DNA of 64,000 nucleotides from Actinomycetota bacterium (GTDB lineage: Bacteria; Actinomycetota; Actinomycetes; Actinomycetales; Dermatophilaceae). The position numbers and the translations under genes are program-made. The notes beneath the pieces were generated by a model. That model did no database searches. It saw only the letters and a program-made list of their open reading frames with translations, and had not been told where the DNA came from. Where the stretch lies: NCBI GenBank assembly GCA_020161845.1, contig JAIUNK010000018.1:26716-90715 (forward strand). The letters run 5' to 3'. Positions 3,469 to 64,000 of the stretch are shown here, in pieces (position 1 is the first letter of the stretch; every line of letters starts with the position of its first letter).

Positions 3469-4209
3469 TCAGGCGACGTCGTTCATGTCGCCGTAGGCGA
3501 CCGGGTTCTGACTGTTGTTGTCGAGCGGATCCGGCTGACCGATGAACGGGTGGTCCGGCAAAGGTTGGCCGATGATGGCGATACGATCGCCGTGGATGGT
3601 GAGACCGTCGATCGTCCCGACCATGCGCACCTGGCCCGCGTGGGCCACGATCAGCCATTGGGAGGCGATGACGCGGTCCGCCTGCATCCGCCACACGCCG
3701 CGGCCGCGCAGCCAGGTCTCATGCGGCGAGGCGCCCTCGCGGAAGCCCACCCGTTCGCGGCCCAGGGCGTCGTTGGTGACGGCGGGCTGATCCGCGCCGA
3801 GCCGGACCCGCACCAATTGCGGGCGTGGCACGGTGGGGTACGCCGAGGGCACGCCGAGCTGCTCCAGGATCTCGCGCTCGCGGGACTGCTTGGACTGCGA
3901 GGACTGGGTCAACACGCTGGCGATGACCGATTGGTGCTGGCCATCCAGGGAGTCCCACCGGGCGCCGAAGGTCTGGTCCGGCTGGCGCACATCGGGATTG
4001 AAGCCGGCGATCTCGGCGCAGATGCCGAGGAAGGCCCGGTCACCACTGGAGAGCACGTTCTGGCTCGCCAGGTAGGCGATCTTGGCCCAGTCGATCTGCG
4101 GCTCGGGGCCCTCGCCGGTGACGAACGCCGCTGCCTTCGCAAGCACCGAGGGCGCACTGGCCAGGATCGCGGCAGCGTCCTCGCGGGCTTGCGTCAAGGC
4201 GAAATCCAT
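3469..4209 (-). CDS. Hypothetical protein, 246 aa
   Basis: I do not recognise a family. The chosen start, reading MDFALTQAREDAAAIL, avoids a long upstream extension whose codons run into the ygeW leader. The product looks soluble: no signal peptide or membrane helix is visible, the N-terminal half is helical with many alanines, and the C-terminal half appears beta-rich (for example QLVRVRLGADQPAVTN and MVGTIDGLTIHGDRIAIIG). It ends in a proline- and asparagine-rich tail. It is divergent from ygeW across a 190-base gap and convergent with the nifJ partner gene, so it is a single-gene unit embedded in the purine locus. No function is proposed. Confidence 0.65.
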   Translation of the reverse strand: MDFALTQAREDAAAILASAPSVLAKAAAFVTGEGPEPQIDWAKIAYLASQNVLSSGDRAFLGICAEIAGFNPDVRQPDQTFGARWDSLDGQHQSVIASVLTQSSQSKQSREREILEQLGVPSAYPTVPRPQLVRVRLGADQPAVTNDALGRERVGFREGASPHETWLRGRGVWRMQADRVIASQWLIVAHAGQVRMVGTIDGLTIHGDRIAIIGQPLPDHPFIGQPDPLDNNSQNPVAYGDMNDVA

Positions 4210-4399
4210 GACCGCAATACTAGCCGGAGCCTTGCCGCCCCGAAAGAAGAAGACTAGACTCTTGCCATAGTTAGATTGACCAGGCCGGGAGTAGCCACCA
4301 CGGTCCGGTCCTGGGCCGGGCCACCCCCCGACCCGCCGCCACACCGAGCACCACACCGGCGCGAGGCCACCGCCATCGATAAGGAGTTGACGAGGTCCC
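4210..4399 (+). promoter_or_regulatory. Divergent intergenic region with candidate ygeW promoter
   Basis: This 190-base gap separates a leftward hypothetical gene from ygeW. A TANNNT-type -10 box (TAGATT, 4272-4277) lies in the least GC-rich stretch, without a convincing -35 box. A GATAAGGAG sequence near 4378-4386 could serve as ribosome-binding site, though its spacing of about 13 bases to the ygeW ATG is long. Confidence 0.35.
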
Positions 4400-5590
4400 A
4401 TGGACGTTCGTGAGCAGATCGCCAAGCTACAGGGGCTGGACTTCTCGGGGCTCTACCAGGACGACTTCCTGCTGACCTGGGACAAGACCGAGGACGAGAT
4501 TCGTGCGGTGCTTGCCGTCGCAGACGCCCTGCGGGGGCTGCGCCAGCAGAACAAGAGCTGCCGCATCTTCGACTCCGGCCTGGGCATCTCCCTGTTCCGC
4601 GACAACTCGACCCGGACCCGGTTCTCGTATGCCTCGGCATGCAACTTCCTGGGCCTCGAGGAGCAGGTCTTCGACGAGGGCAAGTCGCAGGTCGCGCACG
4701 GCGAGACCGTCATGGAGACGGCCAACATGATCTCGTTCATGGCCGACGTGATCGGGATCCGCGATGACATGTACATCGGGAAGGGCCACACCTACATGAA
4801 GGCCTTCTCGGAGTACGTGCAGATGGGGCACGCCGAGGGCGTCCTGGAGCAGCGGCCCACGCTGGTCAGCCTGCAGTGCGACATCGACCACCCGACCCAG
4901 TCCACCGCCGACCTGCTGCACCTGATCCACACCTTCGGGTCGCTGGAGAACCTGCGCGGCAAGAAGCTGGCCATGAGCTGGGCCTACTCCCCCAGCTACG
5001 GCAAGCCGCTGTCCGTGCCGCAGGGCATGATCGGCCTGATGTCCCGGTTCGGCATGGACATCGTGCTGGCCCACCCGCAGGGCTACGACGTGATGAGCGA
5101 GACCCGCGATGTGGCGACGAAGTTCGCCGCCGAGAGCGGCGGCTCGTTCCGGGTCACGCACGACATGGCGGACGCCTTCGAGGGCGCCGACATCGTCTGC
5201 CCCAAGAGCTGGGCGCCGTTCGCCGCCATGGAGGAGCGCACCGAGCTCTACGGCAACGGCGACACCGACGGCATCAAGGCCCTGGAGAAGCGGCTGCTGG
5301 CCCAGAACGCCGAGTTCACCGACTGGACCACGACCGAAGAGCTGATGGCCTCCACCAAGGACGGCAAGGGCCTCTACATGCACCCGCTGCCCGCCGACAT
5401 CACCGGCTTGTCGTGCAAGCAGGGCGAGGTCGATGAGAGCGTGTTCAGCCGCTACCGCGTCCCGATGTACGCCGAGGCCAGCAACAAGCCCTATTCGATC
5501 GCGGCGATGATCTTCCTGCAGAAGGTCAAGGACCCGATCGCCAAGCTCAACGACCTGCTGGCCGACGCAGCGCCCCGCTGGCGGCAGTGA
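4400..5590 (+). CDS. ygeW: Knotted carbamoyltransferase YgeW
   Basis: At 396 residues the protein has the length of E. coli YgeW, an ATCase/OTCase-fold enzyme with a trefoil knot whose substrate was long unknown. The carbamoyl-phosphate loop is clear ([18 protein letters not shown] near residue 72), followed by [13 protein letters not shown], the HPTQSTADL motif near residue 170 and the C-terminal [10 protein letters not shown] block. In purine-degrading bacteria the family is thought to release a carbamoyl group as carbamoyl phosphate from a ureido intermediate, which carbamate kinase then uses to make ATP. It is followed by ygeY and a carbamate kinase gene, which fits that role. It opens the rightward part of the purine operon. 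Confidence 0.93.
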
Positions 5591-59535: not shown

Positions 59536-62500
59536 TCACAGGCTCGGGCCGAGAAAGACTTGCTCGACCGGCGAACGCTCGACATTCGCTGTGTGTTCAC
59601 GAGAGATGTCCCTTGCCTTGTCGAGTGCTGTTCTGGCACGGGCGGCGTCGATCTTCTGGGCGGTTGACTGAGGGGGCGATCCGAGGGGTGTGTCGTCGGT
59701 GATGCGATACCGGTCCCGGTAGGCCGCGACTGTGCGGGCATGTCGCCGCCATGCTGTTGCCTTCCGCGAATCGCGAGGAGGCACGCCGAGCGGTTTCGTC
59801 CAGGCTTCCCGGGCGTCGCGTGCGGCGTCGAGTACCGCGTCGGTGCGGGCCTCGATCAGTTCACGCCGCTCATCAAGTGCTCGGCGCATGTCCGTGTACA
59901 TCGGGCCGTCGGCGTGCGGGACGAGGCCGGCGATCAACCGCGGTGCCTTGCGGGTGCGGCCCGACCCTGCCGGCCGTGCGGTCGCGCGTTCGACGCGGTG
60001 GTGAAGGACGGAAGCGATGTCGTCAGCATCACCGAACCCGCGCGCGGCGACGAGGCGCGGGAGCAGTCGGTCCATGTCGTGGTGATTCGCCTCGGCCCTT
60101 CGCAGCTCGGCGGTGAGTGCGCCGAACGTTTCCGAGTCGAGCACGGTGTCGACTTGCTCGGCGGTGAGCCCCGATGCACGAACCAGGCTCGCCCAGCGGT
60201 CGCGTTGCGCAGCGGCGGCGATCGTCTCGTACTCCGCAGCGAGTTGGGCGATGGAGCCCCACTGCTCGTGTTCGGCGGTGATGGTCTCGTGCGCGGACAG
60301 CTCAGCGCCGACGTGCTGGAGCACCCCGTTCAGCACGCTCCTGCCGGTGGCATCCGGGTTCTCGCCCGGATGCGACTCCGTGTGAGCATCGTCAATCCGG
60401 TCGAGGATCACATACGCACGGTTGGAACGCATGCCTCTTGTCATCGCGACGTAGAAATTCTCCCGCGTCGTGGTGGGCTCGACCAGAACGTGGGCGGTGT
60501 CGACGGTGACGCCCTGGGCGCGGTGGGCGGTGACCGCGTACCCGAGATCGACGTGCTCGGCCACATAGGACGCCGGGAGGAGGATCGAGCCGCCGAACCT
60601 GCGACCGGTCTTGCGGATGGTGATCGAGCCGTCGTCGCGGACGTTGGTGATGGTCCAGGTGTCGCCGTTGCGTACCCACTCCTTGCTGTTGCGGAGGCGG
60701 CGGTCGTTGCGGCGGGTGATGATCGTGTCTCCGACTCCGGCGGCGGTGCCGCCGTTCAGCTCCACCTCCCGGCCCGGTGTAAAGGTGCCGTCGAGGATCA
60801 GGTCCGCGCGGGCGCGCTGGTTGAGGGTGGTGACGTCGTCGCGGGTCTCGGCGATCAGCACCGACACCAACCCCGCATTCCGGTCGGCGCGCCAAGCGGC
60901 ATAGGCAGCATCCGTCATCGCCTCGGCGTCACCGTCGCGGATGCGGCCGTGGTCGAGGTAGGTGTCGATCACCTGCGTCCGCCCGTGCCGCAACGAGAGT
61001 GAGGCCGTCTTCTCCCAGGTGTTCACGAAGCGGTGGACATCGACCAGTTCGGGCGCATCATCCCGGTCGTTCACGAGCAGTCCGAATGCGCCGCCGGCGT
61101 CGACGGACTGGAGCTGGGCGAAGTCCCCGACCAGCAGCACTTTCGTTCCCGCCCACTCGGCCAGGTGCGTGATGCGATCCAGTGAAAGGGTGCCGGCCAG
61201 AGATGCCTCATCGATGATGACGAGCTGGCCGGACTGGAACGTTTCGCCACGGGTGAGTTGGTTCTGCCACCACTTTGCCGTGTTCTCCGTCGGGATCCCC
61301 AAGTCCTCGGCAAGTACCTGTGCCGCGACCGCGGACGGCGCCAGCCCGACCACGGACCCGGCGCCGTGTTCCTTCTCCCATGCCCGCCGCAGCGCGGACA
61401 TGGCCGTGGTCTTCCCAGCACCGGCCGGACCAACGAGCACGTCCAGCATGCGCCCGGAGACGGCGATCTTCGTCAGCGCGTCGGCCTGATCCTCACCGAG
61501 CATCCGCCCCTCATGATCTGGCCGGGCGGTGATCTTCTCCACCGTGCGAAGCGGGACTGTCGGTGCGGTCATGGTGCGGGAACGATCCAGCAGTCGGTCC
61601 TCAGCGGCGAGCAACAGCTCGGAGGAGAACACGGTCGAATGCTTGGGCCGGAACACGCTGGTGCCGTCCGCCCGGCGGAACTCCACCGGGCTGGTGGCGA
61701 GGTCGGGCGGCGTCAGCCGCAACGAGAGTCCTTCGGCAGCATCGGCCACCATGCCGACGACCGCTTCCCGGTCCCGCATCGAGGCGAACCGCCAGCCCAT
61801 CGTCTGCCGCGACGCCTCAGCCATCAGGTTCCAGCGCCGCCACGTCGACCGCTTCTCACCCACCACCCCGACGACCGAGGCGCCGAGTTCGGCGATCACG
61901 TCCAACGGCACATCATCGGCCCGCAACAGCAGCACCGGGTCGTTGTCGGTCACGGCTTGGGCCCATCCGGTGGCGTCCCGACCGAGCACGTCGGCGGCGC
62001 GGGTGCGCCACTCGCTGGTGAGGTTGGCCAGCGACCGCACCTCCTTGTCCGGCCGGGTGGCGAGGGTCGCTTGGGCGCGGAGCTTGATGATCGTCGCCGT
62101 GGACGGCTGGCGGCCGTGCCGGGCGACGTACTCGTCGATCAGCCGGTTCTTCTCGACGTCGATGTGGCGGGCACGGGTGGAGAACTCGGCCACCAGCTCC
62201 TGCGGCACGCTCGTGATCGCCCACGCCGGGTTCCGGTCCCGGCCCATGTCCCGTGCCTCCCACTCCACCCCGAAGGTTCGCGTCATGTGATCGGCGAACA
62301 CCGCCTCATGCAGTTCCGACAGCGCGACCACGGCGGCGTGCATCGGCCGCCCATCCAGCGACCGCCACTTCCCGTCCAAGACTGTCTGGACCTTGTTGGA
62401 GATGACGACGTGGGTATGCAGGTGAGGGTCGCCCGCGCGGGAGTCGAAGTGATCGAACGCCGTCGCCACCAGCCCGGTGACATCGACCTGTGCAACGGCC

Positions 62501-63090
62501 CCGTCCCCGGCGGTTGCACCGGTGCGGGTGGCTGCAACCTCTCGCTCCATGAACGCAACCACATCCGCAACCGCCCGATGATGCGCCTCACCAATTAGCG
62601 CTTGCGTCCCGGCGTCGGCGACCGCCCACAGCGCGGAGGCGGACTTCGGGATCGAGAACGTGAAATCGAACCCCGCCACAGCACGCCGCGTCCCACGCGC
62701 GCTCTCCTCGGCCTCGATCTGCGCGACCGCCGCCGCCTTCGCGCCCGGACTCAGGCCCGCGTCCAGGCCAGCGATCCGCGCATCGATCCGCTCGGACACC
62801 GACTTGTAGACGGGGAACGCCAGACCGAGCGGGTCGCCAGTGATCGGGTCGCGACCCATCCCCATCAAGAGCTGGAGCTGGGCCTCCGACACCCGATCAC
62901 CGACCAAGAGCTGCCCCTTGCCGAGCGAGGCGACACCTGAGCCCAGCCATTGGCCCGGTGGGGTTCCCGCGTCCACGTAGTACCTCGTCAGAGGCGTCGA
63001 CAGCGACCTGTCGCCATCGGCCGCGGCGACCGTGCGGAGCAGGTACTTGTACCCATCACCTGCACTCATCACCCGCATCGAAACCGTCAC
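59536..63090 (-). CDS. MobF-family conjugative relaxase/helicase (TrwC/TraA-like)
   Basis: The 1184-residue protein has the N-terminal relaxase domain with the catalytic tyrosine pair in TRYYVDAGTPPGQWLGSG near residue 37 and the metal-binding three-histidine motif RAGDPHLHTHVVISNK near residue 220. A RecD-like helicase follows: Walker A VGPAGAGKTTAMSALRRAW near residue 555, LVIIDEASLAG, and AVTAHRAQGVTVDTAHV. The C-terminal 250 residues are charged and helical. It nicks and unwinds DNA at oriT for transfer. It marks the right part of the window as an integrative conjugative or mobilisable element. It is divergent from a methyltransferase gene. Confidence 0.94.
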   Translation of the reverse strand: MTVSMRVMSAGDGYKYLLRTVAAADGDRSLSTPLTRYYVDAGTPPGQWLGSGVASLGKGQLLVGDRVSEAQLQLLMGMGRDPITGDPLGLAFPVYKSVSERIDARIAGLDAGLSPGAKAAAVAQIEAEESARGTRRAVAGFDFTFSIPKSASALWAVADAGTQALIGEAHHRAVADVVAFMEREVAATRTGATAGDGAVAQVDVTGLVATAFDHFDSRAGDPHLHTHVVISNKVQTVLDGKWRSLDGRPMHAAVVALSELHEAVFADHMTRTFGVEWEARDMGRDRNPAWAITSVPQELVAEFSTRARHIDVEKNRLIDEYVARHGRQPSTATIIKLRAQATLATRPDKEVRSLANLTSEWRTRAADVLGRDATGWAQAVTDNDPVLLLRADDVPLDVIAELGASVVGVVGEKRSTWRRWNLMAEASRQTMGWRFASMRDREAVVGMVADAAEGLSLRLTPPDLATSPVEFRRADGTSVFRPKHSTVFSSELLLAAEDRLLDRSRTMTAPTVPLRTVEKITARPDHEGRMLGEDQADALTKIAVSGRMLDVLVGPAGAGKTTAMSALRRAWEKEHGAGSVVGLAPSAVAAQVLAEDLGIPTENTAKWWQNQLTRGETFQSGQLVIIDEASLAGTLSLDRITHLAEWAGTKVLLVGDFAQLQSVDAGGAFGLLVNDRDDAPELVDVHRFVNTWEKTASLSLRHGRTQVIDTYLDHGRIRDGDAEAMTDAAYAAWRADRNAGLVSVLIAETRDDVTTLNQRARADLILDGTFTPGREVELNGGTAAGVGDTIITRRNDRRLRNSKEWVRNGDTWTITNVRDDGSITIRKTGRRFGGSILLPASYVAEHVDLGYAVTAHRAQGVTVDTAHVLVEPTTTRENFYVAMTRGMRSNRAYVILDRIDDAHTESHPGENPDATGRSVLNGVLQHVGAELSAHETITAEHEQWGSIAQLAAEYETIAAAAQRDRWASLVRASGLTAEQVDTVLDSETFGALTAELRRAEANHHDMDRLLPRLVAARGFGDADDIASVLHHRVERATARPAGSGRTRKAPRLIAGLVPHADGPMYTDMRRALDERRELIEARTDAVLDAARDAREAWTKPLGVPPRDSRKATAWRRHARTVAAYRDRYRITDDTPLGSPPQSTAQKIDAARARTALDKARDISREHTANVERSPVEQVFLGPSL

Positions 63091-63144
63091 CAGAGCACCG
63101 CCTCTCGACAGCCAGGTGAGCCGACGCTGACCGAGCGGAACACT

Positions 63145-63160
63145 GTCAACGTTGGTTGAC
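63145..63160. promoter_or_regulatory. Inverted repeat in the relaxase-methyltransferase gap
   Basis: GTCAAC and GTTGAC flank the four bases GTTG, 55 bases upstream of the relaxase start. It is a candidate operator or part of an oriT; relaxase genes often lie next to their nick region. Confidence 0.35.
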
Positions 63161-63282
63161 GACCTCGACCTGCAAGACGCGTGTGACCTCGGGCGGCGGT
63201 CGGAGCGAAGGCCGGAGGTCGAGTCGTCAGGCTGTGTCGCTCGGGTGGCTCAGTTGAGCAGCGGGCGCGTGTCGAAGTCGTG

Positions 63283-63326: not shown

Positions 63327-64000
63327 ATGCCGAGGACGACCGTCACCGGAGCGGACTTCATGCACGACCTCAACGCCAGCGGCGACTCAGAACTCAAGAT
63401 CGGTTCGCTGTTCAGCGGCTACGGCGGCCTCGACCTCGCCGTCGAGCACGTCTTCAACGCCAAGACCGTTTGGTTCTCCGAACTCAACGAGCCCGTCGCC
63501 CGCGTCTTCGCCCACCACTGGCCCGACACGCCGAACCTCGGTGACATCACGACCATCGACTGGAGCCAGGTCGAGCCCGTCGACATCCTCATCGGCGGGT
63601 TCCCGTGCCAGGACGTTTCCACCGTCGGCAAGCGCGCCGGCCTCGCGCCCGGCACGCGCTCGGGGCTCTGGGCACACATGGCCGCAGCCATCGACGCGCT
63701 CCAGCCCGAATGGGTCGTCATCGAGAACGTCCGCGGGCTGCTGTCCTCGCCCGCGACACGGCCACCCGCAGAAGGAGACGACCATGACCGACGCAACCCC
63801 CGAGATGCAACCCCCAACGGCGCAACCCTTCGCGGCATGGAACGCGACCCGTGGCATCTGGGAGACAACGCAGCTCGACCTCTACGGGCTCTCGGCGCCG
63901 TTCTCGGCGATCTGGCCGACCTGCGGCTGGATGCACGATGGATCGGCCTACCGGCTTCCCTTGTCGGCGCTCCTCACCAACGCTTCCGCATCTTCGCCCT
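63327..64000 (+). CDS. DNA (cytosine-5)-methyltransferase, N-terminal part
   Basis: The frame runs off the window end without a stop. Motif I is KIGSLFSGYGGLDLAVEHVF, motif IV with the catalytic cysteine is ILIGGFPCQDVSTVGKRAGL, motif VI is VVIENVRGLL, and the last visible segment VGAPHQRFRIFA is motif VIII. The enzyme transfers methyl groups from S-adenosylmethionine to cytosine C5. No cognate endonuclease is seen, so it may be a solitary enzyme of a mobile element protecting it from host restriction. An ATG at 63360 is an alternative start. The last 215 bases are shared with a second reading frame. Confidence 0.92.
   Translation, partial: MPRTTVTGADFMHDLNASGDSELKIGSLFSGYGGLDLAVEHVFNAKTVWFSELNEPVARVFAHHWPDTPNLGDITTIDWSQVEPVDILIGGFPCQDVSTVGKRAGLAPGTRSGLWAHMAAAIDALQPEWVVIENVRGLLSSPATRPPAEGDDHDRRNPRDATPNGATLRGMERDPWHLGDNAARPLRALGAVLGDLADLRLDARWIGLPASLVGAPHQRFRIFA
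63784..64000 (+). CDS. Out-of-frame gene overlapping the methyltransferase, N-terminal part
   Basis: An ATG eight bases after AAGGAG opens a frame shifted relative to the methyltransferase and still open at the window end (72 complete codons). It begins MTDATPEMQPPTAQPF and includes TTQLDLYGLSAPFSAIWPTC then GWMHDGSAYRLPLSALL, a pattern I associate with phage- and element-encoded proteins next to cytosine methyltransferases. By hand count this frame has G or C at 59 of 72 third positions, against 45 of 72 for the methyltransferase frame in the same stretch. Function is unknown; it may alternatively be a chance open frame. Confidence 0.5.
   Translation, partial: MTDATPEMQPPTAQPFAAWNATRGIWETTQLDLYGLSAPFSAIWPTCGWMHDGSAYRLPLSALLTNASASSP

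Follow-up and report, generated by a model that had tools for sequence, protein, structure and literature searches.

Multispecific C5-cytosine methyltransferases of Bacillus phages carry serial recognition modules between motifs VIII and IX, in one polypeptide and in one reading frame. In another enzyme, M.EcoHK31I, the gene of the large subunit reportedly also encodes the small one, in an alternative frame. Outside small viruses, it is uncommon, to our knowledge, for a long gene to be nested on the same strand within another with selection demonstrated in both frames. According to PMC3404938, the target-recognition domain (TRD) of one-chain C5 enzymes occupies the variable region that separates motif VIII from motif IX, the C5 enzyme M.AquI is divided into two polypeptides in this variable region, after motif VIII, and M.EcoHK31I requires two polypeptides, of which the small one has motif IX only and the large one has motifs I–VIII, X, and the predicted recognition domain. 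The HNH element of phage ShiLan is presented in PMC11855218 as a mobile insertion with a homing endonuclease gene that is without a detectable ribosome-binding site. Here we analyze a C5 methyltransferase locus at the very end of a 64,000-nucleotide stretch of DNA (the window, meaning the whole stretch that was analyzed), in which a second frame, beta, lies within the catalytic frame, alpha. The likely product of the locus, in our view, is a C5 methyltransferase of two subunits, with the gene of the recognition subunit nested inside that of the catalytic one.

The locus and its relatives

Alpha occupies 63327..64000 on the forward strand and matches PF00145 (E 2.9e-29, over alpha residues 24–142) and phrog_363 (E 4.8e-59). 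Motif searches place motif IV, GGFPCQDVS with the catalytic Cys, at 63594..63620, motif VI, ENVR, at 63723..63734, and motif VIII, GAPHQRFRIF, at 63966..63995, all on the forward strand; this order, together with the N-terminal cofactor region and the Pfam match, identifies alpha as a C5-cytosine methyltransferase. Alpha shows motifs I–VIII in the window, and motifs IX–X of the relatives fall beyond base 64000, which is also the end of the contig (position 90715). Both frames are cut there, so their 3′ anatomy was read from relatives. The earlier note had proposed extending the sequence past base 64000; the contig offers nothing further, and a search of the assembly at E ≤ 0.001 did not recover the remainder of the gene, its sole other match being a distant methyltransferase, 28% identical, but the whole locus could be seen in the relatives.

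The nested gene, beta (63784..64000, forward strand, +1 frame; phrog_1008, E 3.7e-6), has 72 codons visible before the contig end cuts it. The AAGGAG and ATG that the earlier note had assigned to the second frame are both present, and this start and Shine-Dalgarno site are conserved in relatives: AAGGAG lies at 63772..63777 on the forward strand, six bases ahead of the ATG at 63784, which itself begins 61 nt after the first base of motif VI. Read mechanically, the beta frame already opens at a GTG at 63280, and both frames stay open up to the window end. An N-terminal element of beta, WNATRGIWE (63838..63864, forward strand), sits at the end of zone A (63783–63863), the zone at beta's start in which alpha-synonymous change is suppressed in relatives. 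A further beta element, IWPTCGWMHDGSAY (63910..63951, forward strand), is the +1 reading of alpha GDLADLRLDARW and is largely a shadow of that alpha motif. A recount of third-position G/C reproduced the earlier hand counts exactly, with 136/152 codons of the methyltransferase frame before 63783 and 45/72 after it, and 59/72 codons of the second frame.

The divergent neighbor of the locus, at 59536..63090 on the reverse strand, is a TrwC-type relaxase/helicase gene (PF08751, E 1.9e-89), and the same arrangement, upstream and on the opposite strand, is seen in 71/80 genome loci. The window-type locus is therefore probably part of a family of conjugative or mobilisable elements of actinobacteria. 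The stretch with the relaxase start and the DNA upstream of it (window 63011–63183) has an 82% identical copy on a different contig of this genome (G000:C12:11363–11535, locus L002), with no beta match there. At E ≤ 1e-10, beta is found in 19 of the 186 genomes of the window's family, its own genome included. The number of phage records with a match is 124 for the window beta (E ≤ 0.01) and 579 for the alpha of phage locus L060 (E ≤ 1e-20).

Because relatives were collected by alpha-frame patterns only, beta had no part in their selection; from 368 viral and 281 genome relatives, the best 80 each were taken. A motif search resolved 77 genome and 64 viral loci, leaving 3 and 16 unresolved (19/160). 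The earlier note had named stops in the second frame of homologues as evidence against dual coding. Such stops are rare: among the resolved loci, 75/77 genome and 63/64 viral ones have a beta frame that begins with a start codon near motif VI and reads without a stop through at least 40 codons beyond motif VIII. For the remaining forward frame, an open stretch of similar extent is seen in 5 genome and 4 viral loci. Beta or its start is missing in three resolved relatives (L124, L149, and L067). A stop falls inside 4/27 beta matches of the family-level search, and those in G012 and G048 and one of those in G042 are split in two. On a Microbacterium sp. plasmid (L007; NZ_CP072877.1, about 3902–4906), the methyltransferase frame is interrupted and unannotated, and the intact beta is the annotated gene (WP_187326295.1, hypothetical protein). 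Twelve loci in which beta was found are without the standard motif VIII; in the seven of these that were inspected, the alpha frame reads a variant, for example GACH.

The closest relative, L133 from Tessaracoccus bendigoensis, has an alpha protein 95% identical to that of the window over 202 aa and a beta 94% identical, with DNA 96% identical from motif VI on. Its alpha, which matches M.HhaI at E 2.5e-10, runs from motifs I–VIII through an unconserved linker of ∼70 residues to motifs IX–X in the same chain, with phrog_363 matching over residues 5–365 (the window copy stops before motif IX), and its beta has 164 codons. For codon comparison, L010 and the 80 genome loci (81 in all) gave 78 resolved loci, of which 76 were usable after filters that included beta lying wholly inside alpha, and 69 of which were distinct. 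The second frame does not end within a few codons past the window, an outcome that the earlier note had said would count against it; beta is 139–172 aa long in the 69 distinct relatives.

Selection on the two frames and the start of beta

The 69 distinct loci were codon-aligned and compared in 34 disjoint pairs, with each sequence counted at most once. Upstream of beta, 744/2319 alpha 4-fold sites differ (0.32). The fraction is 25/418 (0.06) in zone A, 180/950 (0.19) over motifs VII–VIII (zone B), 30/698 (0.04) just past motif VIII (zone C), 73/469 (0.16) in the last part of beta (zone D), and 581/1166 (0.50) downstream of beta. The zone C rate is below the upstream rate in all 34 pairs. Beta-synonymous sites in zone C differ at 352/876 (0.40), about as freely as those of alpha elsewhere, and the per-codon change rates at alpha positions 1, 2, and 3 are 0.357, 0.091, and 0.062, which is the codon pattern of beta; position-1 changes exceed position-3 changes in 32 of the 34 pairs, the remaining two being without changes. 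An all-pairs profile (2246 pairs, which are non-independent) gives the same zones. As dual coding demands, zones A, B, and D of the relatives are suppressed at both alpha- and beta-synonymous sites, and zone C is constrained by beta only, so that the order of constraint along the locus is alpha, both, beta alone, both, and alpha again over motifs IX–X. The beta constraint over motifs VII–VIII is modest (0.19 vs 0.32).

The stretch constrained by beta alone lies outside the window, starting immediately after base 64000. The earlier note had held that constraint shifts to the new frame at its start while the old frame stays conserved; the old frame is not constrained throughout, as only beta is constrained just after motif VIII, beyond the window. 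Between L133 and the window, there are 4, 0, and 19 differences at alpha positions 1–3 over the 100 codons before motif VI, and 4, 1, and 3 over the 215 nt from the beta start to the window end. A viral set of 30 disjoint pairs from 61 distinct loci differs at 24/248 alpha sites in zone A vs 625/1719 upstream (lower in 26/28 pairs), and at 164/669 over motifs VII–VIII (lower than upstream in 23/30 pairs). The comparison of codon substitutions at homologous loci, which the earlier note had recommended, finds selection in both frames, and these patterns settle that the two overlapping frames of the relatives are coding; the conserved start and Shine-Dalgarno site and the conserved openness lend further support to genuine dual coding. 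Alpha is open from just past motif VIII through the stop of beta in 69/69 loci, as compared with an expectation of 0.337 per locus when beta codons are redrawn, and is thus apparently kept as one chain with a linker.

In the genome set, beta starts 61 nt after motif VI in 62/69 distinct loci, the start codon is ATG in 67/69, and an SD-like 4-mer precedes it in 62/69. In the viral set, where the first in-frame start codon was taken as the start, it lies 22 nt after motif VI in 48/64 resolved loci and is GTG in 48/64. With the +22 starts, the Shine-Dalgarno site coincides with the Arg codon of alpha ENVR. Among 127 distinct loci, that codon is AGA/AGG in 46/47 Arg cases where beta can start early (two more genes have Lys), in 0/61 with the +61 start, and in 2/17 of the rest, against a background AGR use in the same three classes of 33/379, 38/314, and 8/122. 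The contrast between the early-start and +61 classes is marked (Fisher 6e-30, with related genes being non-independent), and, since the classes largely divide phages from conjugative elements, few separate events may lie behind it. The choice of an alpha codon tracks the start site of beta, which points to independent initiation rather than frameshifting as the way the second frame would be reached.

Programmed ribosomal frameshifting would instead produce one chain, with ribosomes starting in alpha, slipping +1 after motif VIII and, in the window type, slipping back for motifs IX–X. The recognition segment does lie in the normal place between motifs VIII and IX, motifs IX–X follow in the +1 frame in some phages, and methyltransferases are named among the genes known to contain frameshifts in the PRFect paper (PMC10885494). 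However, constraint on the +1 frame sets in at the start of that frame (zone A, 25/418), well before any useful slip point; the start and Shine-Dalgarno site of beta are conserved, and an alpha codon varies with the position of the latter. There is also no conserved slippery stretch where the constraint flips: at a threshold of 97% of the 69 loci, no conserved run of at least 8 nt lies at that point, and the sole one of such length is at codon 169, away from it. The window type would in addition require two opposite slips. We regard frameshifting as unlikely.

The recognition slot and the proposed role of beta

In loci of the L133 type, the stretch between motifs VIII and IX is conserved in the frame of beta only, and the alpha slot is unconstrained except for staying open. 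The best conserved part of beta, with the consensus LFRTPLASDSSRGGESL-QVRARRGTIALSHQIIDL, lies beyond the window end, in the TRD position but out of frame. Ten of the 64 resolved viral loci have the IX–X pattern solely in the frame of beta. In the eight of these ten that were inspected, the alpha stop codon comes 18 to about 70 codons past the beginning of motif VIII, so the frame of beta must contribute to any complete enzyme there. Motifs IX–X are likewise in the frame of beta in 21 of 80 loci found with the beta profile, some contigs being shared with the viral set. Two methyltransferase genes are annotated in the ArV1, Ryadel, and Phanphagia records, with overlaps of 266, 209, and 251 nt, and beta is annotated as a DNA methyltransferase or methylase in the records of ArV1, Arturo, Ryadel, Heather, and Phanphagia. 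In Arturo, Heather, and JayCookie the annotated beta starts late, with an overlap of 23–38 nt; in 6/6 phages checked, the open beta frame reaches back well ahead of motif VIII. Six IMG/VR loci of 43–52% GC (L177, L195, L209, L215, L224, and L241) have a short alpha (about 190 aa) and a longer beta with motifs IX–X, and the overlap is therefore not confined to high-GC DNA. The phrog_1008 profile matches both L133 beta (profile 62–149) and the IX–X end of L133 alpha (221–319). L133 beta has no match in Pfam or NCBIfam, the window beta has none in Pfam, and the beta profile gave no meaningful match against the PDB (only an antibody chain, E 0.53); the recognition role is accordingly argued from position and from the modules described below.

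In many phages, the slot is filled with repeated LPTP-type modules that are read in the frame of either alpha or beta. With the low-complexity filter and composition adjustment off, 37/135 loci (36 viral and 1 genome) have a post-VIII segment in the frame of alpha that matches, at E ≤ 1e-5, a segment which another locus reads in the frame of beta, the best match being that of L057 with L062 (225 columns, 79% identity). Nearly the same module region is found in mycobacteriophage loci in the frame of alpha (L057, L060) and in that of beta (L062), and it seems to have changed frames through a small indel. Phage relative L067 (2889–3107) has its LPTP modules in the frame of alpha and a beta down to 73 codons, and is a natural one-chain version.

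The earlier note had proposed an embedded modulator of the methyltransferase or an overprinted accessory gene. Beta would then be a separate accessory or regulatory protein, such as an inhibitor, an anti-restriction factor, or a repressor, which merely overlaps the methyltransferase gene, and its own start would fit, as would a window-type beta without a recognizable Pfam/NCBIfam domain. Yet the beta frame of the split phages contains motifs IX–X, five phage records annotate beta as a DNA methyltransferase or methylase, and matching module regions sit in the alpha of other phages, while alpha itself is without a conserved recognition segment where beta is conserved. We find an accessory protein improbable, and beta is better read as the missing recognition subunit of the enzyme.

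As a two-subunit enzyme, the locus would work as follows. Alpha (frame 0) would carry catalytic motifs I–VIII, the linker of ∼70 residues, and then motifs IX–X. Beta (frame +1, ∼164 aa) would initiate between motifs VI and VII, with a Shine-Dalgarno site and a start codon of its own, be translated separately, and bind alpha. We infer from the sequence comparisons that beta is made as a separate protein and, by filling the place of the TRD, would supply or shape target recognition. Alpha and beta together would methylate the DNA of the element or phage, which would escape host restriction; protection of the element from host restriction is, by inference, the likely benefit. More tentatively, and with considerable doubt on our part, the locus could be a cross-frame specificity system, in which interchangeable LPTP cassettes between motifs VIII and IX are kept readable in two frames, and a small indel would shift modules between the catalytic chain and the nested beta chain, in either direction. 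If so, one gene would give two enzymes with different target sets, alpha alone and alpha with beta, and specificity could be reshuffled fast in the contest with host restriction.

The openness of a second frame is, taken alone, weak evidence, and was rejected as proof of coding: when the amino acids of alpha are kept and its codons redrawn, the +1 frame is open over the span of beta in 0.397 of draws. The W..SG....G motif of the second frame was likewise rejected as proof, being mostly the +1 reading of the conserved alpha GDLADxGYDAxW. Both are what one would expect of a ghost ORF, held open by high GC and patterned by conservation of the methyltransferase. But the changes in zone C obey the codon positions of the beta frame, and beta also occurs in the six inspected loci of 43–52% GC; the substitution patterns refute a ghost ORF for the relatives, and we give it very little weight for the window. 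A homing-type insertion hidden out of frame has a precedent in the ShiLan HNH gene in a phage methylase (PMC11855218), but is hardly credible here and was rejected, since beta overlaps conserved methyltransferase motifs with no insert, nearly every resolved relative has it, in contrast to a patchy distribution, and a Pfam search gave no HNH match for it.

Comparison with known systems

The nested pair is conserved across actinobacterial mobile elements and many phages, and the inspected records often annotate one frame only, so such enzymes may be cloned and studied minus a subunit. The two-subunit reading would make the locus a testable case of overprinting from functional need, in which a recognition domain that is out of frame is rescued by an internal start. 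It also suggests a possible route by which mobile DNA could change methylation specificity, through frame switching.

M.AquI resembles the split phage loci (ArV1, Ryadel, Phanphagia, and others), in which alpha has motifs I–VIII and beta has the recognition part and motifs IX–X; in the nine inspected, three of them annotated, beta overlaps alpha by 170–266 nt in the +1 frame. A small subunit comprising the distal variable region and motifs IX–X is thus found in those loci, but not in the window type (L133 and other relatives), where beta is wholly nested in alpha and motifs IX–X are back in alpha. We know of no such deep nesting in M.AquI. M.EcoHK31I differs in another way, in that here alpha holds motifs IX–X, and the conservation of the recognition slot is found in beta; instead of a small subunit with motif IX, L133 has a beta that ends before motif IX, which is in alpha. 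The actinophage DNA methylases (phrog_363/phrog_1008; Tweety, ArV1, DLane, and relatives) belong to the same gene family as the window locus, and their records show in some cases two overlapping methylase genes and in others one frame or a late-start beta. The repeated LPTP modules resemble the multispecific Bacillus phage enzymes in layout. The ShiLan element likewise involves out-of-frame coding within an actinophage methylase gene, according to PMC11855218 and PMC9957025, whereas beta is dual-coded with methyltransferase motifs, overlapping the conserved motifs VII–VIII, as a putative subunit and not a mobile insertion, and neither the window beta nor L133 beta has a Pfam match. Searches of open-licence PMC papers turned up no account of a recognition subunit nested in this way in the methyltransferase family, and passages of PMC6456624, PMC2884959, PMC5831693, PMC4081073, and PMC12707154 contain nothing on one. 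Two-polypeptide C5 methyltransferases are known, while a wholly nested subunit without motif IX or X, together with modules that switch frames, looks new.
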